Of a stretch of 64,000 nucleotides of DNA, positions 25,577-48,685 are shown in pieces. Position 1 is the first letter of the stretch, and each line of letters begins with the position of its first letter. The notes below the pieces were generated by a model, which was not told where the DNA came from, searched no databases, and saw nothing but the letters and a program-made list of their open reading frames with translations. Where the stretch lies: positions 450,682 through 514,681 of the forward strand of contig NZ_ML775959.1 in NCBI RefSeq assembly GCF_009769385.1. Reading direction: 5' to 3'. The position numbers and the translations under genes were made by a program. This DNA is from Saccharothrix deserti (GTDB lineage Bacteria > Actinomycetota > Actinomycetes > Mycobacteriales > Pseudonocardiaceae).

Positions 25577-28500
25577 TGCCCGGACAGGACCAGCTCGTCG
25601 AGGCTCTGCGGACGGCGCTCAAGGAGACCGAGCGGCTGCGCACGCAGAACCGCACGATCACCGCGGCGGCCGCGGAACCCATCGCGATCGTCGGCATGGC
25701 GTGCCGGTATCCCGGCGGCGTGGCGTCGCCCGACGACCTGTGGCGGTTGGTGGCAGACGGTGTCGACGCGGTCGGCCCGTTCCCCGCAGACCGGGAGTGG
25801 GACCTCGACGCCCTCCACGACCCGACCGGGGAGGCGCCGAACACCAGCTACGTCCGGGAAGGCGGCTTCCTCGACCGGGTTGCGGAGTTCGACCCGGACT
25901 TCTTCGGCATCAGCCCGAACGAGGCGCTGATCATGGACCCGCAGCAGCGGTTGCTGTTGGAGACCGCGTGGGAGGCCGTGGAGCGTGCCGGGATCGACCC
26001 GGCGGCGTTGCGGGGCAGCGACACGGGCGTGTTCGCCGGGATGATGTACCACGACTACCCGGGCAACGCGAACAACGGCTCGGTCGCGTCAGGGCGCGTG
26101 TCCTACGTGTTCGGTCTGGAAGGACCGTCGGTGACGGTCGACAGCGCGTGCTCGTCTTCGTTGGTGGCGCTGCACTTGGCGGCACAGGCCTTGCGCAACG
26201 GCGAGTGCTCGCTCGCGCTCGTCGGCGGCGTGGCGGTGATGTCGACTCCCGAACCGTTCATCGAGTTCAGCCGTCAGCGCGGGTTGTCGCGGGACGGCCG
26301 GTGCCGGTCCTTCGCGGCGTCGGCCGACGGCACCGGGTGGGGTGAGGGCGCGGGCGTGCTGCTGGTCGAGCGGCTGTCCGACGCGAAGCGCAACGGGCAC
26401 CCGGTGTTGGCGGTGGTGCGCGGGTCGGCGGTGAACTCGGACGGCGCTTCGAACGGCCTGACCGCACCCAACGGGCCGGCGCAGCAGCGCGTGATCCGGC
26501 AGGCGCTCGCCAACGCCCGGTTGTCGGCGTCGGACGTGGACGTCGTGGAGGCCCACGGCACCGGTACGACGCTGGGTGATCCGATCGAGGCGCAGGCGTT
26601 GCTGGCGACCTACGGCAAGGGGCGCGACCGGCCGCTGTGGCTGGGATCGCTGAAGTCCAACATCGGGCACACCCAGGCGGCGGCCGGTGTCGGCGGCATC
26701 ATCAAGATGGTCATGGCCATGCGACACGGCCTGCTGCCCCGCACGCTGCACGTGGACGAGTCCAGCCCACACGTCGACTGGACCGCGGGCAACGTGCAGC
26801 TGCTCACCGAGCCCCGCGAGTGGGGCGGGGGAACGCGGCGCGCGGCGGTGTCGTCGTTCGGCATCAGCGGCACGAACGCGCACGTGATCCTGGAACACGT
26901 GGCCCCGGAACCGATCGAGCCGGGCGCGGACGCCGCCGGGGTACCGGACCGATTCGCCGCACCGAACTCCACCGCCGCATCGAATACGGCCGCATCACCG
27001 GATCTCGCCGCATCATCGACCCCCATCACCGCACCGAACCCGACCACCGTGCCGAGCCTTGCCGCCGAGCCGGAGGTTGCTGCCGTGCCGCTGGTCCTGT
27101 CCGCTCGAAGCGCGCGGGCGTTGCGGGGACAGGCTGAGCGGTTGCGGTCGCACTTGGCCGCGAAGCCGGACCAACCGCTGGCCGACGTGGCGTTCTCGCT
27201 CATCGGGAAGCCGCTGTTCGACCACCGGGCCGTGCTGGTCGGCCGTGACCGCGACGAGCTGATCGGCGCACTCGCCGAACCCCCGGGCCTGGTCCGCACC
27301 GGCGGCCGGACCGCGTTCCTGTTCACCGGGCAGGGCGCGCAGCGGTTCGGGATGGGACGCGAGCTCGCGCGGGCGTACCCGGTGTTCGCCGCCGCGCTCG
27401 ACGAGGTGCTGGCCGAACTCGACCCCGCGCTGCGCCGCGTCATGTGGGAGGAGGACGACGGCGCGCTCGACCGCACGGTGCACACCCAGCCCGCGCTGTT
27501 CGCCGTCGAGGTCGCGCTCCACCGACTGCTCGCGTCCTGGGGACTGCGGCCGGACTTCGTCGCCGGTCACTCGATCGGGGAACTCGCGGCCGCGCACGTC
27601 GCCGGCGTCTTCTCGTTGCGCGATGCCGCGACGCTGGTCACCGCCCGTGCCGAGTTGATGCAGGCGTTGCCCGCCGGCGGGGCGATGGTCGCCGTCGAGG
27701 CGACCGAGGACGAAGTTCTCCCGCTCCTGTCGGACGAGGTCGGCCTGGCCGCCGTGAACGCGCCCGACTCGGTGGTGCTGTCCGGGACGGAGGAGGCGGT
27801 GCTGGCGGCGGTGGGTCGCCTGGCCGGCCGCCGGACCACCCGGCTCAAGGTCAGCCACGCGTTCCACTCTCCGCTGATGGAGCCGATGCTCGACGACTTC
27901 GCCGCCGTGGTCGGCCGGATCGCGTTCGGCACGCCCGACATCCCGGTGCCCGAGGAGTTCCGCGATCCGGACTACTGGGTGCGGCAGGTCCGGCAGCCCG
28001 TGCGGTTCGCGGATCGGGTGCGCGAGCTGGTCGACCAAGGCGTCACGCGGTTCCTGGAGGTCGGCCCGGACGCCATCCTGGCCGAGATGGTGCGGCGGAC
28101 GGCGCAGTCGGACGTCGTCGTGGCGTCCGTGCTGCGCCGCAACCGCCCGGAGGCTCCCACCCTGCTGTCCGCCGTCGGCCGGATGCACTCCGCAGGTGCC
28201 GTGGTCGACTGGCGGGCGTTGCTGAACGGCGGCCGGCGGGTCGAGCTGCCGACGTACGCGTTCGACCGGCAGCGGTACTGGCTGTCCACGATGGACTACG
28301 TCACCGAGTCGTGGATCGGGGCGGGCCTGGCGGGCAACCCCGAGGCGATGGGTCTGGAGGTCGTCGGGCACCCGCTGCTCGCGGCCGCCGTCACGCTGCC
28401 CGGCTCCGATCGGGTCGTGTTCACCGGACGGCTCGCGCAGAGCTGGCTCGCCGACCACGAGGTGCTGGGCACGGCCATCCTGCCGGGCACGGCGTTCGTG

Positions 28501-31500
28501 GAGATGGCGTTGCGCGCCGGCGAGCACACCGGTTGCCCGGTGGTCGAGGAACTCGCGATCCAGGCGCCCGTCGTGGTCACCGAACCGGTGGACCTGCGCG
28601 TCGTGGTCACCGAACCGGACGACGGCGGGCGGCGGGCCATCACGATCCACTCCCGCGTCGGGGACGCGCCATGGGCGCTGCACGCCGAGGGCGTCCTCGC
28701 ACCCGGTGAGGCGACGCCGTCCGGATTGGCCGAGTGGCCGCCGAAGGATGCGGTCGTGGTCGAGACGGATGGCGCGTACGACCGGCTGCGCGATCGTGGT
28801 TACCACTACGGGCCGGTCTTCCAAGGTCTGCGCGCCGCCTGGGTGCGCGGCGACGAGGTCTTCGCGGAAGTGGAGCTGCCCCGCGAGGCGCACGACGACG
28901 CCGAGCGGTTCGGCCTGCACCCGGCGCTGCTGGACGCCGCCATGCACGCCACGCTGCTCGACGACAGTGGCGACGCGGAAACCCTCCTGCCGTTCCTGTG
29001 GCGTGGTGTGGCGCTGCACGCCGTGGGCGCGACGCGGCTGCGGATGCGGATGAGCCCCGCCGGTCCGGGCAGCGTCCGGGTCGTCGTGGCGGACGGCACC
29101 GGCCAACCCGTGCTGTCGGTAGAGGCGGTGGTGTCCCGCCCGGTGTCGATCGGAAAGGCGGCCACCGGACCCGACTTCCTGTACGTGGTCGCCTGGCGCC
29201 CCCTGACCACGACGGCCACTACGACGGACTTCGAGGTCGTAGAGGTGGCGTCGGGCCAGTTGCGCCCGGTGGCCGAGCAGGTGGTCGACGCCCTCCAAAC
29301 CGCCAACGGCCGCCTCACTGCCGGCTCCCGCCTGGCCGTGGTCACCCGAGGCGCAGTCACTCGGGGTGCAGCCGCTGGGACCCCGGCCACCGGCAGCTCG
29401 GCCACCGGCAGCCCGGCCGGCGAGGGCGCAGTCAGTGCGGGCCCAGCCACCGGGAGCGCCGTCGCCGGGGGTTCGGCCGGCGGGAACGTGGTCGTCGACC
29501 CGGTTCAGGCTGCGGTGTGGGGGCTGGTTCGAGCCGCTGAGGCCGAGAACCCCGGCCGGTTCGTGCTCCTGGACCTGGAACCCGGCGAGGCCGTGCCCGG
29601 CTCGCTACCTGAGGGTGAGCCGGAACTCGCGTTGCGCTCCGGCCAGTTCCACGTGCCCCGCCTGGCGCGAGCGACCGCGACGCCCGGCGCCTTCCCCACG
29701 AACGGCACGGTGCTGGTCACCGGCGGCACCGGCGGGATCGGTGCGGCCATCGCCCGTCACCTGGTGACGCGGCACGGCGTCCGTTCCCTGGTGTTGGCGG
29801 GCAGGCGCGGGCTCGCCGCGCCCGGAGCCGAACGGTTGCACGCCGACCTGACAGGTCTCGGGGCCGAGGTGACGATCGCCGCCTGCGACGTGTCCGACCG
29901 GGACGACCTCGCCGCCCTGCTCGCCGCCCATCCCGTCACCGCCGTAGTGCACGCGGCAGGCGTGCCCGACAGCGGACTGGTCGACTCGGTGACCTCGGAG
30001 CGGCTGGACGCGGTCCTCGGGCCGAAGGCCGACGCGGCGTGGCACCTGCACGAACTCACCAAAGACACCGATCTCGACGCCTTCGTCCTGGTGTCCTCCG
30101 CCGGCGGTCTGCTGCTGCCGGCGGGACAGGCGTGCTACGCGGCGGCGAACGTCTTCCTCGACGCCCTCGCCGAGCACCGCAGGGCGCTCGGCCTGCCCGC
30201 GATCTCGCTGGCGTACGGGCTGTGGGACATGGCGGCCGGTCTCGGGGCCGAGTTGACCGAGGACGACCTGGCCCGCATGGCACGGCGTGGTTTCCCGGCG
30301 CTCACCGCCGAACAGGGCTTGGCCGCGTTCGACGCCGCCCTCAACGCGAACACCGCCACCGTGGTCCCGGTGCGGCTGGACCGGACGGCGCTGCGGACCG
30401 GGGGAGAGGTGCCGGCGCTGCTCCGCGCCCTGGTCCGCGTCCCCCGGCGAGCGGCGAAGGCGCTCGCCCCGACTGCCGATCCGCTGGACCTGGTGCGCTC
30501 GACCGTCGCCGCCGTACTGGGCCACACCTCCGGTGAGGCGATCGACCCCGACCGGTCGTTCCACGAACTGGGCTTCGACTCGCTGTCCGCCGTGGAACTG
30601 CGCAACCTGCTGGCCGACGCGACCGGCCTGCGGCTGCCCGCCACCCTGGTCTTCGACTTCCCGACCGCCAGGGACGTCGCCGCCCACCTCTCCGGAGCCG
30701 GGGCCGGAGCCGGAGCCGGAGCCGGGGCCGGGGCCGGGGAGACGCCGGCACCACCAACCATCACCCCGACCAGGGCGGACGACGATCCGATCGCGATCGT
30801 GGCGATGGCCTGCCGGTACCCCGGCGGCGTCACCGCACCGGAAGACCTGTGGCGCGTGGTCTCCGACGGGCTGGACGTCGTGTCGGACTTCCCGACCGAC
30901 CGCGGCTGGCCGAGTGACCTGTACGACCCGTCGCCCGGAAAACAAGGCAAGTGCTACGCCAAAAACGGCTCCTTCCTGTACGACGCCGGGGCGTTCGACG
31001 CCGGGTTCTTCGGCATCAGCCCGAACGAGGCGTTGGCGATGGACCCGCAGCAGCGCCTGGTGCTGGAGACGTCCTGGGAGGCGTTCGAACGCGCGGGCAT
31101 CGACCCGACGACGCTGAAGGGCACCCCCACCGGCGTCTTCGTCGGCGTCATGTACCACGACTACGGACAGGGCACCGGGGCGCCGACCAGCGCCGGGAGC
31201 GTCGTCTCCGGCCGGGTGGCCTACACCTTCGGCCTCGAAGGGCCCGCGGTCACCGTCGACACCGCCTGCTCGTCGTCCCTGGTGGCCCTGCACTGGGCCG
31301 CGCACGCCCTGCGGTCCGGTGAGTGCTCGATGGCGCTCGCCGGCGGCGCGGCGGTGATGGCCACCCCGGAGATCCTGGTCGAGTTCTCCCGCCAGCGCGG
31401 GCTCTCCCCGGACGGCCGGTGCAAGGCGTTCGCCGCCGCGGCCGACGGCACGGGCTGGGCCGAGGGCGTCGGCATGGTGCTGCTCGAACGGCTGTCCGAC

Positions 31501-34500
31501 GCGCGCCGCAACGGCCACCCCGTGCTGGCGCTGGTGCGGGGCAGCGCGATCAACCAGGACGGCGCGAGCAACGGCTTCTTCGCCCCGAACGGCCCCGCCC
31601 AGCAACGCGTCATCCGCCGCGCGCTCGCCGACGCCGGACTCGAACCGTCCGAAGTGGACGCCGTGGAGGCGCACGGCACCGGCACCACGCTCGGCGACCC
31701 GATCGAGGCGCAGGCGTTGCTGGCGACCTACGGCCAGGACCGCGAACGCCCCCTGTGGCTGGGCTCGATCAAGTCGAACATGGGCCACGCCCAGGCCGCC
31801 GCCGGCGTGGCGGGCGTGATCAAGGTGGTGGAAGCGCTGCGGCACGGTGAACTGCCGCGGACCCTGCACGTGGACCAGCCGACACCGCAGGTCGACTGGT
31901 CGGCGGGCGCGGTGCGGCTGCTGACCGAAGAACAGCCGTGGCCGGAGACCGGCCGTCCGCGCCGCGCGGGCGTGTCGTCGTTCGGCCTCAGCGGCACGAA
32001 CGCGCACGTCATCCTCGAACAGGCACCACCGGTCGACGCGCCCGCGGAGCCGGCCGACGCGCCCGCCGTGCCCCTGGTGCTGTCCGGCGCGTCCCCGGAG
32101 GCGTTGCGGGCCCAGGCCGCGCGGCTGCGGGACGGCCTGTCCGGGCGGTTGGCCGACATCGGCTACACGCTGGCCACCGGCCGGGCGGCGCTGGAACACC
32201 GGGCGGTCGTGGTGGCCACCGCGCACGACGACGCCGTGCGCGGCCTCACCGCCCTGGCCGAGGGCGGGCGCCGGACGGGATCGGCCCGCACGAAGGGCGA
32301 CACCGCGTTCGTCTTCACCGGGCAGGGCGCGCAGCGGTTGGGCATGGGACGGGACCTCTACGCGGCGTTCCCGGCTTTCGCGTCCGCGTTCGACGCGGTG
32401 ATCGCCGAGCTGGGCGACGACGTGCGGGACGTGATGTGGGGTGCGGACCGGGCGCGGCTCGACCGGACCGAGTACGCCCAACCAGCGCTGTTCGCGCTGG
32501 AAGTGGCCCTGTTCCGGTTGTTCGAGTCGTGGGGTGTGCGGCCGGCGTTCCTCGCCGGGCACTCGCTCGGTGAACTGACCGCCGCGCACGTGGCCGGCGT
32601 GCTGTCCCTGCCCGATGCCGCCCGACTGGTGCTGGCCAGGGGCAGGTTGATGCAGGCGCTGCCCGAGGGCGGCGCCATGGTCGCCGTGCAGGCGGGTGAA
32701 GCGGAGATCACGCCGACCGGCGGCGTCGCCATCGCTTCGGTGAACGGTCCGTCGGCCGTGGTCCTGTCCGGTGCGGAGGAGGAAGTGCTCGCGTTCGCGG
32801 CGCGGACCGGCCGCAAGACGCGCCGGCTCGCGGTCAGCCACGCGTTCCACTCGCCGCTGATGGAGCCGATGCTCGACCGGTTCCGGGCCGTGCTCGGGGA
32901 GATCACCTTCGCCGAGCCGCGCATCCCGGTGGTGTCGAACGTGACGGGCACCTGGGCGGAAGAGCTCGGCGATCCGGAGTACTGGGTGCGGCACGTGCGC
33001 GAGACCGTGCGGTTCGCGGACGGCGTGCGGACCCTCGCCGCCGCTGGTGTCAGCCGGTTCGTCGAGCTGGGGCCGGACGGCGTGCTGACCGCGATGATCC
33101 AGCAGTGCGTGGACGACGAACCCGCCGTGCTGACGCCCGCGTTGCGGGAGAACCAACCGGAGGCGGTGGCCGTCCTCACGGCCGCCGGGCACCTGCACGC
33201 GACCGGCGTCGCGGTGGACTGGCGGCCGGTGTTCGAGGGCGCCCGCCGGGTCGACCTGCCGACGTACGCGTTCCAGCGCACCGACTACTGGCTGCGCGCG
33301 ACCGCACCCGCCGGCGATCCGTCCGCACTCGGGCTCGCCCCGGCCGGTCACCCGTTGCTGGCCGTCGCGGCACCCGCGCCGGACGGTCTGCTGTGGACGG
33401 GTCGGCTGTCGCTGGACACCCAGCCGTGGGTGGCCGACCACCGGGTGCTCGGCACCGTTCTGCTGCCCGGCACGGCGTTCGTGGACCTGGCGTGCTGGGC
33501 GGCAGGGCAGGCCGGGTGCCGTTCGGTGGACGAGCTGACCCTGCACGCCCCGCTGGTGCTGGGAGCCGAGGACGCGGTGTCGTTGCGGGTGGCTGTGACC
33601 GAACGGGTCGTCACCGTTCACTCGCGGGCCGACGCCGACGGTCCGTGGATCCTGCACGCGGAGGGCGCGATCGGTGACGAGCCTGTGGCGCCGGCGTTCG
33701 ACTTCGCGCAGTGGCCGCCTGTGGACAGCACGCCCTTGGACGTCGCGGGACTGTACGACGAACTGTCCGACCGGGGGTACGAGTACGGGGAGGTGTTCCG
33801 CGGGCTGCGGGCGGCTTGGCGTCGCGGTGACGAGCTGTTCGCGGACGTGCGGCTGCCCGAGCAGGCGAGCGGGGACTTCCCGGTGCACCCGGCCCTGCTC
33901 GACGCCGCCATGCACGCGCTCGGTCTGGGCGAGTCGGACGCCACCGTGCTGCCGTTCTCCTGGCAGGGCGTGACGCTGCACGCGGGCGGTGCGCGTGCGC
34001 TCCGGGTGCGGATCGCGTCCACCGGACCGCGGGCGCTGTCGTTGGACTTGGCGGACGCCTCCGGCGCTCCGGTGGCGTCGGTGGCCGGTCTGGCGTTGCG
34101 CGAGGTCGCCGCCGGACAACTCGCCGCCGCCAACCGCTCGCTGTTCCGGATCGGAACGGCCCTGCTGCCGCCCGTCTCCGCCGACCGGTCCGAGGTCCGG
34201 ATCGTCCGGCTCGACCCCGGTCCGGGTGACGTGCCCTCGGCCGTGCGTGCGGTCACCGGCCAGGCCCTGGACCTCGTGCGGTCCGGCGGGTCGCTGGTTG
34301 CCGGGTCGCGGGTCGCCGTGGTGACTCGCCGTGCGCTCGCCGTGGAGCCGGGCGAGGAGGTGGACCCCGCTGCCGCGCCGGTCTGGGGACTGGTGCGGGC
34401 CGCGCAGGCCGAACAGCCCGGCCGGTTCGTGCTGATCGACACCGACGGTCCGGTGGCCGACGAAGCGCTGGCCGCCGCCGCGTCGAGCGGCGAACCGGAG

Positions 34501-36477
34501 ATCGTGTTCCGCGACGGCACGCCCGCCGTGCCCCGCCTCGTGCGGATCACCGATGCCGGCCCGGCCGACCAGCCGTGGGGCGGGACCGTCCTGGTCACCG
34601 GCGGCACCGGCGGTCTCGGGGCCATCATCGCCCGGCACCTGGTCACCGAGCACGGTGTGCGCCGCCTGGTGCTCACCAGCCGGCGCGGGCTCGACGCGCC
34701 CGGTGCGGCGGACCTGCGTGCCGAACTGACGGCGGCGGGCGCGGACGTGGTCGTGGCCGCGTGCGACGTCTCCGACCGGGCCGCGCTCGCCGCGCTGCTC
34801 GACGAGGTCGGGGAGCTCGGCGGCGTCGTGCACGCGGCGGGCGTCGCCGACAACGGACTCGTCGAGACCCTCACCCCGGAGCGGGTGAACGCGGTGCTCA
34901 CCCCCAAGGCGGACGGCGCGTGGCACCTGCACGAGCTGACCCGCGCCATGCCGCTCACGGCCTTCGTGCTGCTGTCCTCGGCCGGTGGCCTGGTGCTGCC
35001 CGCCGGACAGGGTGGTTACGCCGCCGCCAACGTCTTCCTCGACGCCCTCGCCGCCCACCGCCGTTCGCTCGGCCTGCCCGCGACGTCCCTGGCGTACGGG
35101 TTGTGGCAGGTCGACACGGGACTGAGCCAGTGGTTGGGCGAAGCCGACCTGCACCGCATGCGGCGTCAAGGACTGCCCGCGTTGTCCGCCGAGGAAGGCC
35201 TGGCGCTGTTCGACGCCTCCCTCACCGCCGGCGTGCCGAACGTGGTGCCGCTGCGGGTCAGCCTGCCCGATCTGCGTGCCCGGACCGACCAGGTGCCCGC
35301 GCTGCTGCGCGGACTGGCCGGGGGAGCGGCACGACCAGCCGCCGTGCGTGACTTCGCCGCACTGTCCGGGGACGAACGCGACCAGGCCGTCCGCGAGCTG
35401 GTGCTGGCGCAGGTTGCGGACGTGCTCGGGCACGGTTCCGCCGCCGACGTCGACCCGGAGCGCGACTTCCTGGAGCTGGGCTTCGACTCGCTCGGCGCCG
35501 TCGAGCTGCGCAACAGCCTGAACGCGGCGACCGGCCTGCACCTCGCCGCGACCGTGGTGTTCGACTGCAAGAACCCCGCCGAGCTGGCCCGTCGGATCTG
35601 CGAGGAACTCGGCGTCCAGCGCCCGGCGGCTGCCCGGACCGGGGACGACACGGTGGCCCGGCTGTTCAGCTCGGCGGTGCTGTCGGGGCAGGTCCTGCGC
35701 GGGTTCGACCTGCTGCGCGCGGTCGGCGCGCTGCGCCCGAGGTTCGACGCGGCGGCCGACTTCACCCGCGAGGCGCCCGCCGTGAGGCTCGCCGACGGCC
35801 CCGCCCGGCCGGTGGTGATCGGTGTGAGCACGCCGATGGCGACCGGTGGCCCGCGCCAGCACGCGCGCCTCTCGGCGGCGTTGCGCGGCATCCGGCCGGT
35901 GCACTCGTTGGCACTGCCCGGCTTCGACGGAGACGAGCCCCTGCCCGCGTCCGTCGAAGCCGTGCTGTCGGTGCTGGCCGAGGACGTGCTGCGGGCGGCG
36001 GAAGGCGACCCGTTCGTGCTGCTCGGCTACTCCGGTGGCGGCACGCTGGCGTACTCGCTGGCCGGTCACCTGGAGCGGGTGACGGGCGTGCGACCGGCCG
36101 GGGTGGTGCTGCTGGACACCTACGCGGTCGATCCGGAGGACGACGGCCAGGCGAAGCTGATGGAACGGCTGGCGCACGGCATGGTGGCCAAGGACGCCGA
36201 GTTCGGCCTGTTCCACAGCGGTGTGCTGTCCGCGATGACCTGCTACTTCGACCTGATGCCGCACTTCGGCCTCGCGGATGTCGAGGCACCGGTGCTCTTC
36301 GTGGGCGCGGAGCGTTCGTTCGACCCGTCGGACACCGGGGACGGCTGGCGGGCGCGGCCGTGGCACCCCGCGCACAGCCACCGCACCGTGGCCGCCGACC
36401 ACTTCACGATCATCGAGCAGGACGCGGCGGCGACGGCCGCCGTGGTGGAGGAGTGGATCAGCTCGACGCTGACGTGA
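25576..36477 (+). CDS. Modular type I polyketide synthase, two KS-AT-DH-KR-ACP modules plus terminal thioesterase
   Basis: The start ATG overlaps the upstream stop (TGATG), giving 3633 residues. A docking helix ([15 protein letters not shown]) begins the protein. Module 1: KS Cys192 in the variant [10 protein letters not shown] Ser666 in GHSIGE with HAFH (malonyl), DH His961, KR Tyr1521, ACP Ser1669. Module 2: KS Cys1898, AT Ser2330 in GHSLGE with HAFH (malonyl), DH His2622, KR Tyr3148, ACP Ser3305. Both KRs have PDS or ADN where B-type enzymes carry LDD. A type I thioesterase ends the chain: Ser3486 in GYSGG, His3609 in ADHF, and an Asp in LLDTY. The first AT lacks a short segment (VSNVTG) present in the others. 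Low-complexity inserts occur in the KS-AT linker (about 26930-27070), the first KR (about 29365-29500) and the ACP-KS linker. The TE releases the chain, here most likely by macrolactam formation. Confidence 0.95.
30694..30735 (+). repeat. In-frame hexamer repeat encoding an Ala-Gly linker
   Basis: Seven tandem copies of GGAGCC or GGGGCC lie between an ACP and the following KS. They encode a run of alternating Gly and Ala followed by a Pro/Thr-rich stretch. The array probably acts as a flexible inter-module tether and is prone to slippage. Confidence 0.8.
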
Positions 36478-36557: not shown

Positions 36558-37469
36558 GTGCCCACCGTCGCTTTCGGCCCCTACCGGACGTGGTACCGCG
36601 TCACCGGTGACCTGCGTTCCGGCCGTCCGCCCGTCGTCGTCGTGCACGGCGGCCCCGGCAGCACCCACGACTACCTGCTGCCGCTGACCGTGTTGGCCGA
36701 GGACGGCTGGCCGGTGGTGCACTACGACCAGCTCGGCAACGGCGGGTCCACCCACCTGCCCGACCGCGGGGCCGACTTCTGGACGGTGGACCTCTTCCTG
36801 GACGAACTCGACAACCTGCTGGACCGCCTCGACATCGCCGACGACTACGTCCTGTTCGGGCAGTCGTGGGGCGGGCTGCTCTCGGCGGCGCACGCGGCCG
36901 AACGCCCCGCCGGCCTGCGCGGACTCGTCGTCGCCAACGCGCCCGCGTCCTACCCGTTGTGGCTGCGGGAGATGAAGGTGCTGCGGGACGCCCTGCCACC
37001 CGGCATCGACGACGTGCTGCGGCGGCACGAGGCCGCGGGCACCACGGACAGTGACGAGTACCAGCAGGCCGCCCGGGAGTTCTACCGGCGGCACGTGTGC
37101 CGGCTCGACCCGCTTCCCCAGGAGTTCCAGGCCTCGCTGTACGAGCTCGACAACGACCCCACCGTCTACCACACCATGAACGGCCCCAACGAGTTCCACG
37201 TCGTCGGCACGCTGGCCGAGTGGGGCGTGGAGGACCTGCTGCCCGACGTCGAGGTACCCACCCTCGTCCTCTCGGGTCGCCACGACGAGGCCACCCCGGT
37301 CACCGTGCGGCCCTACCTGGACCTGATCCCGGACGCCCGGTGGGAGATCTTCGAGGAGTCCAGCCACGTGCCCCACCTCGAGGAACCGCAACGGTTCCGC
37401 GAGGTGGTCGTCGGTTACCTCAGCGGTCTGCCATCCGCGTCAACCGCGAGCGGTCGATCTTCCGGTTGA
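36558..37469 (+). CDS. Alpha/beta-hydrolase aminopeptidase, proline iminopeptidase family, VinJ-like
   Basis: The GTG start is chosen because a strong ribosome site GAGGAGAA (36548-36555) lies just before it; the protein is then 303 residues, normal for the family. Residues 30-35 form the HGGPGS oxyanion-hole motif. Ser103 lies in GQSWGG, and Asp243 (GRHDE) and His270 (SSHVP) complete the triad. In vicenistatin biosynthesis the family member VinJ removes a protecting alanine from the N-terminus of the finished polyketide so that the thioesterase can close the lactam. Its place directly after the TE gene and beside ligase, ACP and acyltransferase genes supports that role here, which is inference from family and context. 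It overlaps the convergent ligase gene by 50 bp. A general prolyl aminopeptidase is the alternative. Confidence 0.85.
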   Translation: MPTVAFGPYRTWYRVTGDLRSGRPPVVVVHGGPGSTHDYLLPLTVLAEDGWPVVHYDQLGNGGSTHLPDRGADFWTVDLFLDELDNLLDRLDIADDYVLFGQSWGGLLSAAHAAERPAGLRGLVVANAPASYPLWLREMKVLRDALPPGIDDVLRRHEAAGTTDSDEYQQAAREFYRRHVCRLDPLPQEFQASLYELDNDPTVYHTMNGPNEFHVVGTLAEWGVEDLLPDVEVPTLVLSGRHDEATPVTVRPYLDLIPDARWEIFEESSHVPHLEEPQRFREVVVGYLSGLPSASTASGRSSG

Positions 37470-38883
37470 AGTTCAGCGGGAACCCGTCCACGTGCCGGTA
37501 CTCGCGCGGCAGCATCCCGGGTGGCAGCACCTGTCGCATCCAGCGCGCCAGCTGCGGCGCCGGTGTCACGGCCCCGGTGTAGAAGGCGACCAGCTCGGTG
37601 CCGTCCGGCCCGGAACGGGCCACCGCGACCGCCTCCCGCACGCCGGGGCAGCTCCGCAGCGCGTGCTCGACCTCGGCCAGCTCCACCCGCCACCCGTGCA
37701 CCTGCACCTGCGAGTCGAGCCGGCCGAGGTAGACCAGCTCGTCGTCGGGCAGCCGCCGGACCCGGTCCCCGGTGCGGTACCAGCGCTTCCCTGCGCGGTC
37801 GAGGAACCGGCCGTCGCCGTCCGCCGGGTCGAGGTAGCCCGGCGTGAGCTGCGGGCCGGCGATGCACAACTCGCCCTCGGTCTCCGCGTCACCGCCGTCC
37901 TCGTCCAGCAGCAGGTAATCGTGTCCATCGTGGACGGTCCCGATCGGGACCAGCCCGTTGACGCACCGCGCCGGAGAGGTGAGCGGGTCCCAGCGGTGCC
38001 CGGTGACGGTCACCGTCAGCTCGGTCGGCCCGTAGATGTTCTCCAGCGCGGACCCGTTCGCCGCCGCCTGCCAGTCGGTCGCGTCCGCCGCGTGCAGCGC
38101 CTCGCCCGCGAACAGGCTCCACCGCAGCGACGGCATGGCGCCCGGACCGAGCCCGCCCATCCTGCGCACCAGGGCGATCGCGCTCGGCGTGGAGAACCAG
38201 ACCGTCAACCGCCGTTCCGCGACGAACGCGGGCAGGTCGCGATAGGCCGTCGGCGGGACCGCGTGCACGCTCGCACCGGCGCCCCACCCGCAGAACAGGT
38301 CGAACATCGCGCAGTCGAAGTTCAGGTCGAACGTCTGCGAGAAGACGTCTTCCGGCGTGAAGTCGTACCGCCGGTCCAGCAGCCGGAAGTAGTGGTCAGT
38401 GTTGGCGTGGGTGATCGGCACCCCCTTCGGGCGACCGGTGGACCCGGACGTGAACAGCACGTAGGCCGTATCGGAAGGGGCGACGGGACGCGGTTCGGTG
38501 AGCGCCCGGCGCGGGTCGGGTTCGGTGAGCACCGTGACGCCGAGGTCCGCGGCGGGGGAGTCGGAGACCACCACCGACACACCGGCGGCGGCCAGCATGC
38601 CGCGGGTCCGCTCCAACGGGAAGTCGACGTGCAGCGGAACCACCGTCACGCCCGCGTACAGGCAGGCGAGAACGCCCACATAGGACTCGACGCTCTTGGC
38701 CCCCAGCACACCCACGGCCCGTGGCGGCTCGTCGGTCGCCGACAGCAGCGTGCCCGCCCACACCAGCGCGCGTTCGTGGAGTTCGGAGTAGGTGAGGCAG
38801 TCCCGGCCCACCCGCAGCGCGACCCGGTCCGGCGCCACGGCGAGCCCGCGCAGGAAACGCGCGTGCAGGGCGTGCTCGGTCAT
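37420..38883 (-). CDS. ATP-dependent amino acid adenylating ligase, VinM-like
   Basis: This 487-residue stand-alone member of the ANL superfamily has the phosphate loop TSGSTGRPKG (residues 145-154), the YGPTE motif, the YRTGD motif, a GRLD hinge and the catalytic C-terminal Lys475 in NRKIDR. No carrier or condensation domain is attached. It resembles DltA-type alanine ligases. In macrolactam pathways VinM attaches L-alanine to the amino group of the beta-aminoacyl group on a free ACP, protecting it during chain growth. Alanine as substrate is inference from family and neighbours. The start ATG has GGGAG five bases upstream. The gene is divergent from the ACP gene and converges on the aminopeptidase gene. 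Confidence 0.85.
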   Translation of the reverse strand: MTEHALHARFLRGLAVAPDRVALRVGRDCLTYSELHERALVWAGTLLSATDEPPRAVGVLGAKSVESYVGVLACLYAGVTVVPLHVDFPLERTRGMLAAAGVSVVVSDSPAADLGVTVLTEPDPRRALTEPRPVAPSDTAYVLFTSGSTGRPKGVPITHANTDHYFRLLDRRYDFTPEDVFSQTFDLNFDCAMFDLFCGWGAGASVHAVPPTAYRDLPAFVAERRLTVWFSTPSAIALVRRMGGLGPGAMPSLRWSLFAGEALHAADATDWQAAANGSALENIYGPTELTVTVTGHRWDPLTSPARCVNGLVPIGTVHDGHDYLLLDEDGGDAETEGELCIAGPQLTPGYLDPADGDGRFLDRAGKRWYRTGDRVRRLPDDELVYLGRLDSQVQVHGWRVELAEVEHALRSCPGVREAVAVARSGPDGTELVAFYTGAVTPAPQLARWMRQVLPPGMLPREYRHVDGFPLNFNRKIDRSRLTRMADR

Positions 38884-38892
38884 CTCTGCTCC

Positions 38893-38940
38893 CGGCGGTA
38901 GTGGTTTGCGGCGGTAGGGGTCTGCGGCAGTAGGGGTTTA
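38893..38940. repeat. Three 16-bp tandem repeats in the ligase-ACP divergent promoter region
   Basis: Copies begin at 38893, 38909 and 38925 with consensus CGGCGGTAGGGGTYTG, and a partial fourth starts at 38941. They occupy almost half of the 117-bp gap between the divergent ligase and ACP starts, beginning only 10 bp from the ligase ATG. They could be regulator half-sites spaced 16 bp apart or slippage products. Confidence 0.7.
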
Positions 38941-39000
38941 CGGCGGTGTCGCGATCGGCTTTCTTCGAGTGCGTAGGAATCACGAGGATTCGGAGTCGCC

Positions 39001-39249
39001 ATGTGGGATCAGCAGTTCGAGGACATGCTTCGCACCTACCTGCCGTTCATCGCGGCCGACGAGCCCCTGGCCGAGGACGCCGACCTGCGCGACCTCGGGC
39101 TGGACTCGCTCGGCGCGGTGGAACTGCTGGCATCGCTGGAGAACGCGTACGGCGTGCGGTTCGTCGACGACATGCTGACGATGGACAACTTCGCCACGCC
39201 CGGCGTCCTGTGGGGCACGCTGGACAAGGCCAGGGAAGTCGCGGCCTGA
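39001..39249 (+). CDS. Free-standing acyl carrier protein, VinL-like
   Basis: This 82-residue protein has the phosphopantetheine site LGLDSL with Ser36. A GGAG ribosome site (38992-38995) precedes the ATG. In the vicenistatin system the equivalent protein VinL carries the beta-amino acid starter while it is decarboxylated and capped with alanine, and then hands the dipeptidyl unit to the PKS loading ACP through VinK. It lies between the ligase and acyltransferase genes that would act on it. It could in principle serve another acyl pathway, but the neighbours make the starter role most likely. Confidence 0.88.
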
Positions 39250-39263
39250 GTGCCCCGGGGCCG

Positions 39264-39330
39264 GGTGCCGTCGCCGTCGGGTCCGTCGCCGTCGGTCCGG
39301 TGCCGTCGGGTTGCGGTGCCGTCGGGTTTC
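39264..39330. repeat. Degenerate GCCGTCGG repeats between convergent ACP and acyltransferase genes
   Basis: About six imperfect copies of a GCCGTCG(G) core fill the 104-bp gap between the two convergent stops. No stable hairpin was recognised, so no terminator is called. Confidence 0.5.
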
Positions 39331-39353
39331 CGGGCAAAGCCTCCCGCCCGGCA

Positions 39354-40268
39354 TCAGGCCACCGGCACCGGGCGCCGGGGACGCAGAGCCGTCCTCGGGT
39401 CCACCAGGGTCACCGATGAGAACGACTCCCGCACCCGTCGCACCCGACCGAAGAGCCGGTCCGGCCCGGCGACGTGCAAGTGCTCGATCCCGTTGTCACG
39501 CAAGCTGTCCACCACCGCGGGCCACCGAACCGCCCGCACGTACCCGTCCAGCAGCCGCGTCCGGACGTCTTCGCCGGTACGCAGCACGGCACCGTCCTGA
39601 TCGGCGACAACAGGGATGACCGGATCCACGAAGGGAATTCCGGCGAGCACTTCGCGTTCCACCACGTCACGCAGCGGGCCGAACACACTGGCGTGCAACG
39701 GCGGTCGCATGGTGTAGAGCGGCATACCGCCCACCGACCGGATCCGGCGCTGCAACCACTCCAGCCGGTCCTCCCGCAGGGTGACCATGTAGAGGTCCTC
39801 GTCCACCTCGCACGAGACCTCGTACCAGTCCAGTTCGGTCAGGATCTCGTCCAACCGCTCACGCGGCGTCCGCGCGAACGACTCGGTCACCACGTCACTG
39901 TGGTGCAGAGCGAAGTACTCGCGCTCGCACCGCGCCATGCCCACCGTCACGCGCACCGCGTCCTCGAACCCGAGGGCGCCGGAGTAGACGGCGGCGGCCT
40001 TGCCCCCGAAACTCGCACCCGCGCACAGCTCGGCCTCCTGCCCCGACCACTGGGCCAAGGCCAGACACGTGACCAGGAACGCGACCTGCGCCGCCTCCGA
40101 GTAGTCCCCCTCCTCGACCTCGTACCGGTCGAACAAGGAGTACCCCAACACCTCGTCCGCCCGCCCGGTCAACTCCCGGGCGAACGGGTTCACCACCATC
40201 AGCCTGGCAACGTCCTGGAACCGCACGGGCCCCATCCCGGGAAAGGCGATCGCGGTACCCGCCACCAT
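39354..40268 (-). CDS. Stand-alone acyltransferase, VinK-like
   Basis: The ATG at 40268 is chosen over an upstream in-frame start because AAGGGG precedes it by a few bases and the protein then opens with the usual AT sequence (AIAFPGMG). It has 304 residues. The nucleophile is Ser86 in GASFGG, a variant of the GHSxG motif of PKS acyltransferases, consistent with a non-malonyl substrate. In the vicenistatin pathway VinK moves an alanyl-beta-aminoacyl unit from the free ACP VinL to the loading ACP of the PKS. The nearby ACP and ligase genes support the same job here. A malonyl transferase acting in trans is less likely because every visible PKS module has its own AT. Confidence 0.82.
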   Translation of the reverse strand: MVAGTAIAFPGMGPVRFQDVARLMVVNPFARELTGRADEVLGYSLFDRYEVEEGDYSEAAQVAFLVTCLALAQWSGQEAELCAGASFGGKAAAVYSGALGFEDAVRVTVGMARCEREYFALHHSDVVTESFARTPRERLDEILTELDWYEVSCEVDEDLYMVTLREDRLEWLQRRIRSVGGMPLYTMRPPLHASVFGPLRDVVEREVLAGIPFVDPVIPVVADQDGAVLRTGEDVRTRLLDGYVRAVRWPAVVDSLRDNGIEHLHVAGPDRLFGRVRRVRESFSSVTLVDPRTALRPRRPVPVA

Positions 40269-40543
40269 TGAACCCCTTGCGAGAAAGTGCACGGCCACCG
40301 CCAGTCTGCCGCCCACCCCCGCCCGCCCCGTACCCCCTAACCTCCCCTAACTATCACAAAGCCACAACGGTGAGAACGATGCCCGACACCAGAATCAAAC
40401 CCGGCAGATCGCGGCGGCCGAGGTCTGGGGGTCCGGACTCGGCGTGCACGGCGTGCTGGGCGCTGCTTTCGGCAAGCCCGGAAAGCGCTAGCCTTTCGAG
40501 TGATACACAGCGTTCTTCCGGTAGCATTCGCCGTGCCGTGGTA

Positions 40544-44454: not shown

Positions 44455-45690
44455 TCAGTCGTAGCCGCCGAACATGAACAGCGAGATCTGGTGGTCCGAC
44501 GGGTTGGCCAGGCCGTGCAGGTTGCCGCCCTTCAGGAACGCCATGTGCCCCGCCCGCAGCAGGCGCACCTCGAAGCAGCGGGTGCGGGTGTCGGGCTCGG
44601 CCCAGTCGCCGATCACCATCCAGCCCTCGCCGTCCAGCATCAGGAACACCTCGGAGTTGTCCCGGTGGCGGTGCAGGCCGATACCGCACCCGGCGTCCAT
44701 GACGTGCAGGTCCATGTAGTCGACGGCCAGGAACGGCTCCTTCGCGCCCGGCGCGGCCTTGCGGCCGAACGCGTCGAGGTTGTACGGCTCCAGGCTCCGG
44801 CCCAGTTCATCCGAACCGGTGAACCGGAAGTAGTTCGACAGCAGGTTGCGGTACTCCAGGAAACCGATGCCACCGTGCGGGTTCGGGCTGCGGCCGACCT
44901 CCAGGAACGCGTCCCAGCCGCGCACCACCATCTGGAACGCGATGGTGACGGGCCCGACCTCGGCGGTGCGGTCCGTGCTGCGCCACCGCAGCACGACGCG
45001 CAGCGGCCGAACCGGGTGCAGCAGGTGGTCGGGCGCCACCTCGCGGACGTCCCGACCGTCCAGCTCCGCGCGGCTGAACGCGTTCGGCGCTCCCCTCGCG
45101 ATGTCCGGGCGGGCCTGCAGGACGCCGAGCTTGAGCGACTGCCGGCCACGCGCCCCGAGGCGGGACTCCAGGTCGTCGCCGCCGTAACCCCACAGTTCGG
45201 CGACGTAACGGTCGCTTTCGGGGTCGTAGGGCGCCTCCAACTCGGCACGCCCACCGCCCTCGACCTCGACGTCGACCAGCACCCGATCGCCCAGGGAACC
45301 GTTGTGCGCCTGGGCGAGCGCGCTGTCGGGCCCCGCGCGGTACGACAGGTGCAGGAACGGGCCGGTCCAGTCACCGGCCAGCGCCCAGCCGCGCACCGCC
45401 CTCGTGTCGCCCAGCCGGAAGTCGGCGACGTTCTGCTTCTGGAAGTCGGTCTTGAAGTCCTGCGCGGCCGGGTCGAGGACGTCGGTGTTCGGGCTGCTCG
45501 GCCCGTACAGCGCGAGCCATTCGTGGGGTAGCAGGTACTGCAGCGACGGCGTGGCGTAGCACTCCAGCTCGGCGGCGAGCCGGGTTTGCTGCACCACCGT
45601 GAGCAGTCGCTCCAGCGGGTTGTCGGACGAGTAGTTCGGCACCGTGCCGGGGTCGACGCGGTGGACGGCGTCACCTTGCGGGATCCGCAC
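44455..45690 (-). CDS. Large cupin-domain protein of unknown function (last gene of GMC operon)
   Basis: This 411-residue protein has a C-terminal cupin. Motif 1 reads HRHRDNSE and motif 2 KGGNLHGLAN, together providing two His, one Glu and one His as metal ligands, so an iron- or manganese-dependent oxygenase or isomerase is possible. The N-terminal 270 residues resemble those of the upstream cupin protein: YRAG, LGDxV and a YxxExW pattern recur in the same order. It is the fourth gene of an apparent operon, 49 bp after the previous gene. It carries no signal peptide. I do not recognise a specific substrate or pathway. Confidence 0.75.
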   Translation of the reverse strand: MRIPQGDAVHRVDPGTVPNYSSDNPLERLLTVVQQTRLAAELECYATPSLQYLLPHEWLALYGPSSPNTDVLDPAAQDFKTDFQKQNVADFRLGDTRAVRGWALAGDWTGPFLHLSYRAGPDSALAQAHNGSLGDRVLVDVEVEGGGRAELEAPYDPESDRYVAELWGYGGDDLESRLGARGRQSLKLGVLQARPDIARGAPNAFSRAELDGRDVREVAPDHLLHPVRPLRVVLRWRSTDRTAEVGPVTIAFQMVVRGWDAFLEVGRSPNPHGGIGFLEYRNLLSNYFRFTGSDELGRSLEPYNLDAFGRKAAPGAKEPFLAVDYMDLHVMDAGCGIGLHRHRDNSEVFLMLDGEGWMVIGDWAEPDTRTRCFEVRLLRAGHMAFLKGGNLHGLANPSDHQISLFMFGGYD

Positions 45691-45739
45691 GGGGCACCTC
45701 CCTTTCAGGGGGTTGGTCTCCGCTCAGGGATGGCAAAGG

Positions 45740-46882
45740 TCAGGGATGGTAGAGGAATGCCACGAACTTCAACGGCTCGTCGCCGTCGGCGCGGATGCCG
45801 TGGATGCCCCCGCTCTTGGTGAACAGGGTGCTGCCGGGGCCCACGGCGACCTCCCGGCACGGCTTGGGGCCGATGCCGTACACATGGCGTTCGACGACCG
45901 GCTGCTGTGCCGCGGCCGGGTCGTCGTCCACCCCGAGGTAGGCCCGACCACGGCCGGACACCACGTAGTACAGCTCCTCGGAGCCGATGTGGCGGTGCGT
46001 GCCCTCCACGACGCCCGGCGGGATGGTCACCTCGTGGAAGAACACCAGGTCGCCGCCCAGCTCGCGCTGCACGAGCCACCGCATGTCCAGCACGTTGCCG
46101 TCGCCGGGCTTCGCCTCCGGGTTGTCCGGGTCCATCATGGCGTTGCGGTAGCGCACCGGCGGCACCTGCGCCGAGTCCGGGATGAACCACGCGCGCTGGT
46201 AGTCCAGCAGGTAGTTCAAGTCCCGCACGGTGTTCTGGTCCGAGGACGGCTGCGGGTCGCGCGGCTCCTGGTGGGAGCGCAGGAAGTTGTTGTCCCACTG
46301 GACGTCCGGCACCGGGTGGCCGGTGGGCGTCGTCATCGCCACCTCGCTGAACGCCACTTCCAGGCGGCGCAGGGCCTTGATGTCGACCAGCGCGGGCGCG
46401 AGCGACGGCGGGCGGGTGATCGGGGCGTTGGCACCCATCAGCGGGATCACCCGGTAGTCGTGGTCGGTGTTCTCGGGCGGCTCCAGGGTGTCCCACATCT
46501 CCACCGCGTACGCGTCCACCGACTTGTCGTAGCGCAACGTCACCGTCGCGTCGGCGGTCAGCGACTCGTCGTTCGGCAGCACGCGCACCCACGCGTTCAC
46601 CGAGTCGCCGAGGCGGCGTCCGCGTTCCCGCACCAGCTCGGTGAGGCGCCCGGCGCGGTACTCCAGGCGCAGCACGCTGCACAGCCGCGTGCCGTCGAGG
46701 TAGACGCTGCCCTTCATCGCCGTGACGTCCGGGCCGTTGCGGACCTCGTCCACGTCGTACCGGTAGCGGGGGCTGCGCGCGGCCAGCAGGTACCGCGAGT
46801 GGTAGATCCGGTCGGGGAAGAACACGACGCGGAAGATCTCGTTCTCCGGCTGGGTGAAGATGTCGTCGAACGCCGGGTCCAT
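45740..46882 (-). CDS. Large cupin-domain protein of unknown function
   Basis: The ATG at 46882 is preferred to an upstream in-frame start because it lies 5 bp after the stop of the GMC oxidoreductase gene, with GAGGG in that gene's last codons as ribosome site. The protein has 380 residues. The C-terminal cupin has HRHIGSEE as motif 1 and a KSGGIHG motif 2, with all expected metal ligands. The N-terminal part shares ordered motifs (YRAG, LGDSV, YAVEMW) with the neighbouring cupin, suggesting an old duplication. Presence beside a flavin oxidoreductase suggests action on an oxidised substrate, but the reaction is unknown. Confidence 0.78.
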   Translation of the reverse strand: MDPAFDDIFTQPENEIFRVVFFPDRIYHSRYLLAARSPRYRYDVDEVRNGPDVTAMKGSVYLDGTRLCSVLRLEYRAGRLTELVRERGRRLGDSVNAWVRVLPNDESLTADATVTLRYDKSVDAYAVEMWDTLEPPENTDHDYRVIPLMGANAPITRPPSLAPALVDIKALRRLEVAFSEVAMTTPTGHPVPDVQWDNNFLRSHQEPRDPQPSSDQNTVRDLNYLLDYQRAWFIPDSAQVPPVRYRNAMMDPDNPEAKPGDGNVLDMRWLVQRELGGDLVFFHEVTIPPGVVEGTHRHIGSEELYYVVSGRGRAYLGVDDDPAAAQQPVVERHVYGIGPKPCREVAVGPGSTLFTKSGGIHGIRADGDEPLKFVAFLYHP

Positions 46883-46887
46883 GGACG

Positions 46888-48681
46888 TCACACCCTCGTG
46901 GTGAGCAGTTCGCCGACGCGGAAGGCGTTGGCCTGGATGGTCAGGGTCGGGTTGGCGCCGCCGGAGGTCGGCATGAACGACCCGTCGGTGACGTAGAGGT
47001 TGTCGAACCGCCACGCGCGGCAGTCCGGGTCGAGCACCGAGTCGGCCGGGTCGGTGCCGAAGCGCGCGCCGCCGAGGACGTGGTTGGCGATGCGCCGCAC
47101 GTCGTTGCCGACGTGGCCGAAGCCGATCAGCTGCACGCCGTCACCGCCGCGGGCGAGGATCTCCCGGCAGCGGTCGGCCAGCACGTCCATCACCGCGCGG
47201 TCGTGGCTGTGCCAGCCCTTGTCGATGTGCGCCACCGGGCGGTTCCACTTGTCGCGCACCGACGGGTGCAGCGTGATCCGGTTGGTGGGCAGCGGGAGTT
47301 GGTTCGCCATGAACGCCACCGACAGCTGCCGGCCGAAGTTCTCGGTCAGGTAGCCGTCGAACTGGTCGCCGCGCATGTCCAGGTCGTAGAGGTAGCCCTT
47401 CCACATCGTGTCCATGTCGTTGGCGGCCCACGTGCGCGCCATGCTGATCGGCAGCGCCGAGTCCGACGTGTTGTTGTAGATCGCGCCGCCCGCCCACAGC
47501 CCGTTGGCGCGCACGAACTCCGGCGTGGCACACGCGTCGGTGGCCCAGTCCGAGTCGAGCGTGCGGGACTTGTCGTGACGGCCGGGTACGCGGGCCGACG
47601 CGCCGCCGAAGCAGTGCGTCAGGAAGTAGCGGCCCAGCAGGCCGTTGCCGTTGATCCGGTCCGCGAAGCCGGCGTCCCGCTCGGCGGACAGCTGCAACAG
47701 CCGCACCGACTCGATCGCGCTGCACGCCACCACCACGACCGTGCCGCCCACCGTCCGCTCGCGTCCCAGCGGATCGCGGTAGTGCACGTCCGTCACCCGC
47801 CCGTTCGTCGCCGACAGGTGCGTCACGACGCAGTTGGCGCGCAAGGCGAACCCCGGCTGGGTGGAGATCGGGTGCAGCAGCGACACCCACGTGTTGGACT
47901 TCAGGCCCAACGGGTCGCCGTAGCGGTTGACGAACGCGGTCTTGATCGACTCGCGGTCGGTCGGCACCGTGCGGCCGCTCGGCGCGTGGTCCTCGGTGAT
48001 GACCGCCAGCGGGGTGCGGTAGCGCCGGAAGCCCAGCGCGTCCATCCCGGCGGCGACGTGCGCGCTGATGTCGTTGGGCTCCAGCGGCTTCTGGTAGTTG
48101 TCCACGCTCGCGGGCTTGAGCTGGCCGTCCCTGGTGCCGTTGATGCCGACCAGCTCCTCGGCCCGGCAGTACCACGGTTCCAGGTCGTCGTAGCCGAACG
48201 GCCAGTCGCGGGCCTCCCGGGCGACATCGCCGCCGGGGTCGGCGCGCAGGTCGTCCCGCCCCTGGTTGGCCGAGCGCAGCCGGAAGTCGTCCGGGGCGAA
48301 CCGCAGCGACACCCCGCCGTAGAGCTGCGTGCCGCCGCCCACGACCTGCGCGGTGTACCCCTCGATCGTGACCCTGTCCTGGCCGTCGGTGTCGCGGTAG
48401 ACGTGCGGCTCGTCGTTCAGGTCCGGCTCGACGTGGCTGGAGTAGAACGACACGCCGGTGTTCGCGACACCCTGCACCTGCAGCACCTTCTCGGCGCCGG
48501 TGGCGAACTCCTCGTCGCGCTTGAAGTCCGACAGCCCGTCGGGACTGGTGTGCTGTGAGTGGAACAGCGGCCCCTTCTCCAGCACCAGCACGCGTTTGCC
48601 CGCCCGCACGAGCGCGTGCGCGACGGGCGCGCCGCCCGCGCCGCTGCCGATGATCACCGCGTCGAACGTCTCGTCGGCCAT
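46888..48681 (-). CDS. GMC-family FAD-dependent oxidoreductase
   Basis: This 597-residue protein starts with the FAD-binding motif IIGSGAGG and ends with the GMC C-terminal signature: HVLGGARFG, then NLYVTDGSFMPTSGG and NPTLTIQANAFR. GMC enzymes oxidise alcohols or sugars using FAD. It lacks a signal peptide, so it works in the cytosol unless exported with a partner. The gene upstream, 4 bp away, encodes a protein with a gluconate-2-dehydrogenase subunit-3-like region, the usual small partner of such flavoproteins; the cytochrome subunit typical of membrane gluconate dehydrogenases is not encoded here. Two cupin genes follow. The substrate is unknown. Confidence 0.88.
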   Translation of the reverse strand: MADETFDAVIIGSGAGGAPVAHALVRAGKRVLVLEKGPLFHSQHTSPDGLSDFKRDEEFATGAEKVLQVQGVANTGVSFYSSHVEPDLNDEPHVYRDTDGQDRVTIEGYTAQVVGGGTQLYGGVSLRFAPDDFRLRSANQGRDDLRADPGGDVAREARDWPFGYDDLEPWYCRAEELVGINGTRDGQLKPASVDNYQKPLEPNDISAHVAAGMDALGFRRYRTPLAVITEDHAPSGRTVPTDRESIKTAFVNRYGDPLGLKSNTWVSLLHPISTQPGFALRANCVVTHLSATNGRVTDVHYRDPLGRERTVGGTVVVVACSAIESVRLLQLSAERDAGFADRINGNGLLGRYFLTHCFGGASARVPGRHDKSRTLDSDWATDACATPEFVRANGLWAGGAIYNNTSDSALPISMARTWAANDMDTMWKGYLYDLDMRGDQFDGYLTENFGRQLSVAFMANQLPLPTNRITLHPSVRDKWNRPVAHIDKGWHSHDRAVMDVLADRCREILARGGDGVQLIGFGHVGNDVRRIANHVLGGARFGTDPADSVLDPDCRAWRFDNLYVTDGSFMPTSGGANPTLTIQANAFRVGELLTTRV

Positions 48682-48685
48682 GGTC

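Follow-up and report, generated by a model that had tools for sequence, protein, structure and literature searches.

Directly after the thioesterase (TE) domain that closes a polyketide synthase (PKS) gene, a 64,000-nucleotide stretch of the Saccharothrix deserti genome (the window; positions 450682 to 514681 of contig NZ_ML775959.1, here C3) carries four genes, at window positions 36558 to 40268, that almost certainly, as judged from their sequences, represent the VinJ/VinM/VinL/VinK-type set of a vicenistatin-type macrolactam pathway. With equally high confidence, this contig is predicted to hold a vicenistatin-type (3-aminoisobutyrate) macrolactam cluster that is laid out in two blocks. The original prediction of a beta-amino-acid-primed polyene macrolactam pathway, made from the window alone, is thereby supported, with the starter set found on the same contig. 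While the cassette itself is of a known kind, the unexpected part is PKS module 4, which is split between its ketosynthase (KS) and its acyltransferase (AT). The explanation that we favor overall, and consider likely, is a two-block 3-aminoisobutyrate pathway in which module 4 is split and its halves pair in trans.

Cassette and starter genes

All four open reading frames (ORFs) of the cassette were confirmed at the positions and on the strands given for them and are of the predicted kinds, and each retains its catalytic motifs. The putative VinJ-type amidohydrolase (positions 36558 to 37469, forward strand, 303 amino acids), which would strip the protecting aminoacyl group, is preceded by GAGGAG just ahead of its start and carries the GQSWG, GRHDE and SSHVPH motifs. 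Its gene overlaps tail to tail, by 50 bases, with that of the putative VinM-type ligase (37420 to 38883, reverse strand, 487 amino acids), which would add the protecting amino acid to the beta-aminoacyl-acyl carrier protein (ACP) and has an adenylation core and the NRKID lysine. These are followed by a VinL-type free ACP (39001 to 39249, forward strand, 82 amino acids) with GLDSL and by a putative VinK-type dipeptidyl acyltransferase (39354 to 40268, reverse strand, in a frame extendable to 40316) with GASFG and PPLHAS.

The suggested comparison with VinJ, VinM, VinL and VinK yielded a match for every protein. In the PDB, the VinJ-type protein matched 3wmr best (E = 7.2e-146), followed by 7a6g (1.5e-110) and a further relative (1.8e-93), while the VinM-type protein matched 8k4r_A (3.2e-192) and then 6akd (3.3e-184). 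The VinL-type ACP matched 5czd_B (7.9e-30), 8k4r_B (1.5e-29) and 6m01_B (7.1e-29), all remaining matches being at 5e-5 or worse. The VinK-type protein (39354 to 40316) matched 5czc (6.9e-112); beyond the four entries that we take to be VinK, its best match was at 6.2e-15. As the match tables give generic molecule names only, it is our assumption that 3wmr, 8k4r, 6akd, 5czd and 5czc are VinJ, VinM-VinL, IdnL7, VinL and VinK, respectively. Structures of VinK-VinL, VinM-VinL and VinN exist, and their reactions are described in passages of PMC11284099. The VinK type occurs once in the S. deserti genome (710 bits; next match, 26), and the VinL type is almost as isolated (172 bits; next matches, 40 and 29). 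The VinM-type ligase (1122 bits) has a weaker relative (392 bits, 49% identity) in another cluster on another contig (C6:131673-133118).

The GASFG nucleophile motif of the VinK-type protein had been called non-standard. It is indeed rarer than GPSFG among 80 relatives (GPSFG in 72, GASFG in 5, GLSFG in 2 and GVSFG in 1), but it is not unique, as GASFG is also read in the solved VinK (5czc alignment). The mixed +,-,+,- orientation of the cassette is, as had been noted, unusual. All four genes lay within the fetched stretch at 58 loci of the same 80 relatives, the other 22 loci being incomplete, and J+ K+ L- M+ (31 loci) and J+ K+ L+ M+ (21 loci) were the prevailing orders, followed by K+ M+ L+ J- (2 loci) and four further orders found once each. 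None of the 58 complete loci had the window order, J+ M- L+ K-. Because inverting K-L-M in the commonest order yields exactly this arrangement, we attribute the cassette's odd orientation to such an inversion.

VinK-like proteins were also encountered in other settings. Five Streptomyces loci encode a VinK-like AT 59 to 61% identical to that of the window, with no VinJ, VinM or VinL above thresholds within the fetched stretch, perhaps reflecting another use of this acyltransferase type. VinK homologues were furthermore present on nine plasmid records (seven Streptomyces, one Kitasatospora and one Thermomicrobium); of the eight matches listed, seven are annotated as ACP S-malonyltransferase and one record is without annotation. 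Such clusters may thus also travel on large plasmids.

The starter genes were located with a VinN profile built from 26 VinN-type proteins, out of 64 candidates beside VinK in the 80 relatives. Its best match in the S. deserti genome, C3:322264-323751, scored 804 bits, compared with 340 bits for the next of 103 matches, and the encoded protein has 3wvn, which we take to be VinN, as its best PDB match (E = 1e-196). This gene belongs to a left block (C3:322198-343586) that encodes, in order, the VinN-like ligase, a pyridoxal phosphate (PLP)-dependent decarboxylase, a B12-binding protein, glutamate mutase E, a 5132-residue PKS and a 433-residue KS-only protein. The decarboxylase matches Orn_DAP_Arg_deC, the B12-binding protein gives a weak methylaspartate mutase S match (3.3e-18), and the Met_asp_mut_E match at C3:325543-326658 is the sole one in the genome; for the decarboxylase and for glutamate mutase S and E, Pfam scores are over the cut-off and NCBIfam equivalog scores below it. 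The 5132-residue PKS consists of a loading ACP followed by three KS-AT-dehydratase (DH)-ketoreductase (KR)-ACP modules (modules 1 to 3).

A VinN-like ligase, a PLP decarboxylase and a loading ACP without KS had been expected upstream of the window. All are present, but not beside it: the VinN-, VinO-, VinH- and VinI-like genes (C3:322198-326878), with the KS-less loading ACP just after them, lie 124 to 128 kb left of window base 1. The loading ACP is accompanied by no loading KS, AT or coenzyme A ligase, whereas a KSQ-AT or coenzyme A ligase domain in the loading module would have spoken against the prediction, and the TE stands on the last PKS. Within the 25 kb just left of the window PKS, no VinN was found by comparison with VinN-type proteins and by domain scans. 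The three nearest ANL enzymes, at C3:428524, 430207 (a nonribosomal peptide synthetase [NRPS]) and 434959, were rejected as VinN, sharing 25 to 30% identity with VinN-type proteins; the best structures for the two free-standing ones (428524 and 434959) belong to other families.

The two blocks are 106.1 kb apart. The left block lacks VinK, VinL, VinM and a TE, and the window with its adjoining stretch lacks VinN, decarboxylase and mutase genes. As these gene contents complement each other without overlap, we regard the blocks as one pathway, of the type termed 3-Amp by Seibel et al. (PMC10662134). Indeed, their orthologues are contiguous in four other genomes (Saccharothrix luteola, G137, G154 and G223). 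A single contiguous cluster, as is typical of beta-amino-acid macrolactam pathways without defining their function, is not what S. deserti has.

A PKS module divided between two genes

The KS-only ORF (C3:342285-343586) encodes 433 amino acids, comprising an N-terminal PF08990 docking domain and a whole KS with its active-site and VMYH motifs, and stops 7 residues past GTNAH. In passages of PMC11321453, the VMYH motif is linked to a KS accepting unsaturated chains that an upstream DH delivers; module 3, upstream of the KS-only protein, has a DH. The AT-first gene begins 20 bases after a gene for an FAD enzyme, with GAGGAGG and a TTG start, and runs straight into the KS-AT linker and AT. It extends to window position 5688 on the forward strand, its start lying left of the window at about position -989 (C3:449692), and encodes linker-AT-DH-KR-ACP (the second half of module 4), followed by KS-AT-ACP (module 5). 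The remaining PKS genes, all on the forward strand, encode module 6 (docking domain and KS-AT-KR-ACP; 5695 to 10578), modules 7 to 9 (each KS-AT-DH-KR-ACP; 10589 to 25576), and modules 10 and 11 (KS-AT-DH-KR-ACP) with the TE (25576 to 36477, with a likely ATG at 25576 within a longer ORF, 24457 to 36477). KS and AT share one polypeptide in 10 of the 11 modules, module 4 being the exception. As both blocks together contain 11 KS and 11 AT domains, pairing the KS-only protein with the AT-first subunit makes the assembly line complete.

The ratio dN/dS between the KS-only protein and three orthologues was 0.29 to 0.32, compared with 0.22 to 0.36 for six pairs from modules 1 to 3; as the distances are large, the ratio indicates no more than continuing constraint on the KS. 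Two complementary polypeptides that add up, by their anatomy, to one module were found both in S. deserti and in G137, a genome of another genus assembled into two contigs (one of 10.3 Mb). There, the same KS-only and AT-first pair occurs in a contiguous cluster without N, ordered VinN, decarboxylase, GlmS, GlmE, loading PKS, KS-only, other genes, FAD gene, AT-first PKS (2349426) and, farther on, VinJ, VinK, VinL and VinM. The front of the pathway is on the left and the back on the right, as in S. deserti, with the cut ends 16 kb rather than 106 kb apart. The G137 KS-only protein (2332283-2333647, 454 amino acids) is 72% identical to that of S. deserti and ends 9 residues past GTNAH, and the cluster has nine KS domains and nine ACP-ended modules once the KS-only and AT-first proteins are paired. 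Since this pair also occurs in a near-closed genome from a different genus, the split is not an assembly error.

KSs co-migrate with their upstream domains according to evidence cited in passages of PMC10402262, where engineered cuts lie 10 and 11 residues past GTNAH; the natural gene ends, 7 and 9 residues past this motif in two genera, agree with this updated module boundary. We are highly confident that the split module is real in the DNA and consider it fairly probable that the halves work in trans. The more specific proposal is favored by a narrow margin: a naturally separate KS, with an upstream docking domain only, would pair in trans with an AT-DH-KR-ACP subunit that has no KS and whose gene is 106 kb distant; the cut, at the updated boundary, would have arisen by loss of AT4-DH4-KR4-ACP4 and KS5 across a gene boundary, leaving the product one unit shorter and the line unbroken.

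Origin of the split and alternative explanations

The proposed loss is derived from comparison with S. luteola, in which a contiguous orthologous cluster of 13 modules (contig C59, 142908-219942) has both module 4, beside a gene for an LLM-type flavin monooxygenase, and module 5, beside the FAD gene, whole. In a first tree, the S. deserti KS-only protein grouped, with a local support of 0.95, with S. luteola KS4; the AT of the AT-first subunit grouped with S. luteola AT5, the only methylmalonyl-type AT of that cluster (support of 0.70 for the pair and 1.00 for the clade of this type). Therefore, the piece missing relative to S. luteola is AT4-DH4-KR4-ACP4 plus KS5, that is, one AT-to-KS block. 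The second module of the 13-versus-11 difference is accounted for by the next-but-one PKS, with four modules in S. luteola and three here. A 106-kb insertion into a formerly fused module was set aside, because modules 4 and 5 of S. luteola, each whole, sit at the ends of its cluster beside the same FAD and LLM neighbors; the other genes between the G137 halves likewise disfavor it.

In eight genomes, an orthologue of the FAD gene lies near the VinK gene; the PKS gene that follows is AT-first in two of them (S. deserti and G137) and KS-first in the other six. In a ninth, G214, the FAD and VinK genes are 94 kb apart on one contig, and the 1.5 kb on either side of the FAD gene contain no PKS domain. 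The KS-only protein was compared with 386 genomes from the same family and 394 from the same class, with four candidates scored per genome; among the matches listed, frames shorter than 650 amino acids were those of S. deserti (447), G137 (572) and G073 (612), the G073 match being only 291 bases away from the end of its contig. When 19 DH-KR-ACP regions were placed in a tree, the two AT-first halves grouped with S. luteola module 5 and S. deserti module 8 (100/97); the p-AU value for the AT-first pair alone was 0.335.

Several observations weigh against a working split module of common origin. Domain scans recognized no docking element on either new end. The AT of the G137 AT-first half lacks the GHSxG serine motif, and this module may be altered or dead. 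In a wider tree of 29 KS domains, the G137 KS-only protein joins the whole module-4 KS of G154 (100/99), while that of S. deserti joins a KS of G341 (87/88), although constraining both KS-only proteins together was not rejected (p-AU, 0.336). Finally, the spacing of 106 kb crosses a 10-N scaffold gap (C3:388672-388681). As the DH-KR-ACP tree groups the AT-first halves and the KS tree parts the KS-only proteins, the AT-first halves are related, and the KS-only halves may have been exchanged or cut independently of one another. As a separate observation on the G137 cluster (C1:2335761-2358713), the ATs of two modules lack GHSxG (GIGVG and GTGPG, with the AT shortened), and in each case the following module has two consecutive ATs (KS-AT-AT), of which the additional one may be what loads the AT-dead neighbor.

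The missing docking domains and the dead-looking G137 AT, like the distance between the blocks and the long branch of the KS-only protein (0.43), would also fit a decaying cluster that has lost a module and makes no macrolactam, the stranded KS and headless subunit being remnants. We consider this rather unlikely, as the remaining genes of the set have open frames that carry their domains, the KS keeps its motifs and a constraint like that of modules 1 to 3, the cut ends have a clean stop and a strong ribosome site, and the same pair occurs in another genus. An assembly artefact, with the KS and AT halves truly fused or the 106-kb distance false, is very improbable. The assembly is a draft of 162 contigs, and the mte macrolactam cluster was fragmented by short reads according to a passage of PMC10662134. 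However, the N gap lies 45 kb and 61 kb from the two cut ends, both of which are continuous sequence with a stop codon or ribosome site, and G137 has the same ORFs. Furthermore, searching the 106 kb between the blocks with models of the cluster's own KS, AT, DH, KR, ACP and linker produced no match at E < 0.01. A repeat search within each of the two cut flanks, taken separately, gave only short, chance-like families.

It is scarcely credible that two unrelated pathways are involved, with the tail of the left block elsewhere and the window cassette using an amino starter from the neighboring HPPD, E1 and FMN oxidase genes. The genes beside the window do resemble an aromatic amino acid set, and contig C6 has a second VinM-like ligase (49%, 392 bits) with a weak VinL-like ACP (40 bits) at 131646-133411. 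Nevertheless, the genome contains just one VinK-type and one GlmE-type gene, and no second VinN-type gene comes close in score. No VinK match accompanies the C6 ligase, the nearest acyltransferase domain on that contig being 49 kb off, and the neighbors of this ligase appear from their sequences to be P450, 2-oxoglutarate oxygenase-like and other non-PKS genes. The contiguity of the block orthologues in four genomes also argues against this explanation.

Predicted pathway, known systems and neighboring genes

In the two-block pathway with a trans-paired module 4, glutamate mutase would form 3-methylaspartate, which VinN would load onto VinL, and the PLP decarboxylase would convert it to 3-aminoisobutyryl-VinL. 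VinM, encoded in the window, would cap this with an amino acid, and VinK would hand the resulting dipeptidyl group over to the loading ACP with which the first PKS begins. From module 3 the chain would cross to the free-standing KS, trans-paired with the linker-AT-DH-KR-ACP subunit as module 4; modules 5 to 11 would extend it, VinJ would uncap it and the TE would close the ring. The AT motifs are YASH (methylmalonyl type) in module 4, YASH in modules 7 and 8 and HAFH in module 9. The predicted ring is 26-membered (a C3 starter, 11 C2 units and N), with modules 4, 7 and 8 predicted to introduce methyl branches, module 5, which has no KR, a keto group and module 6, which has KR only, a hydroxyl group, the remainder being a polyene. 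Pretilactam, made by an 11-module PKS from another beta-amino acid starter, is likewise 26-membered (PMC6631532, in part).

The vicenistatin PKS has 8 modules, compared with 11 here, where the genes are in two distant blocks and module 4 is split between KS and AT. All eight starter-handling genes of that pathway (VinH, VinI, VinN, VinO, VinL, VinM, VinK and VinJ; PKSs VinP1 to VinP4) as listed in passages of Kudo 2024 (PMC11284099) are shared, and there too a loading ACP opens the first PKS and a TE ends the last. The 3-Amp type Amycolatopsis clusters pac, asa, cir and mte (Seibel 2023; PMC10662134, in part) have the same starter set and overall architecture, most of them with ten modules on six PKS genes; neither "split" nor "KS domain" occurs in the main text of that paper. 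The S. luteola cluster shares the FAD gene, the PKS series, VinK-L-M-N, glutamate mutase, the loading PKS and the LLM monooxygenase, but in circularly permuted order.

Modules divided over two polypeptides have precedents of other kinds. According to passages of PMC10127204, the cyanobacterial barbamide, jamaicamide and lyngbyapeptin PKSs have KS-AT on one polypeptide and methyltransferase-ACP on the other, so that the cut falls after the AT and not between KS and AT. The cremimycin pathway, which also makes a beta-amino acid macrolactam, has a split module in CmiP3/CmiP2, cut inside the DH of a starter-making PKS (PMC11284099, in part). Literature searches among open-access papers, which covered result lists and excerpts of a few papers, showed no KS/AT split, which is not proof of absence. 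In PKS engineering, there is a long dispute as to whether modules should be cut before or after the KS, on which this natural cut bears. If the halves work, a covalent KS-AT link is not needed, and the pair is a ready system for measuring the KS:AT-linker interface. Cluster finders that rely on short neighborhoods may show the pathway as two broken fragments.

Other genes lie close to the two blocks. The LLM-type flavin monooxygenase gene (C3:343697-344956) adjoins the KS-only gene and perhaps encodes a tailoring enzyme; in the S. luteola cluster, the corresponding end has a homologue with 67% identity. C3:425766-449671 encodes a glycosyltransferase, a fatty-acyl-type ligase, a C-A-T NRPS, an aminotransferase, an HPPD-family enzyme (NCBIfam 4HPPD above cut-off), PhyH, E1 alpha and beta, a hydrolase, an FMN oxidase and an ABC transporter. 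This stretch has the look of a cluster for an aromatic, presumably phenylglycine-like amino acid, lodged between the macrolactam blocks. On C6, the second-best VinN-profile match (340 bits) is located 15 kb from the VinM-like ligase, beside another ACP-like frame, and this cluster may be for a related chemistry, either capping or the handling of carrier-bound amino acids, that involves no PKS. Beyond the right end of the macrolactam cluster, a GMC oxidoreductase gene lies beside a gluconate 2-dehydrogenase subunit 3-like gene and genes for two cupin proteins (window positions 44455 to 49681).

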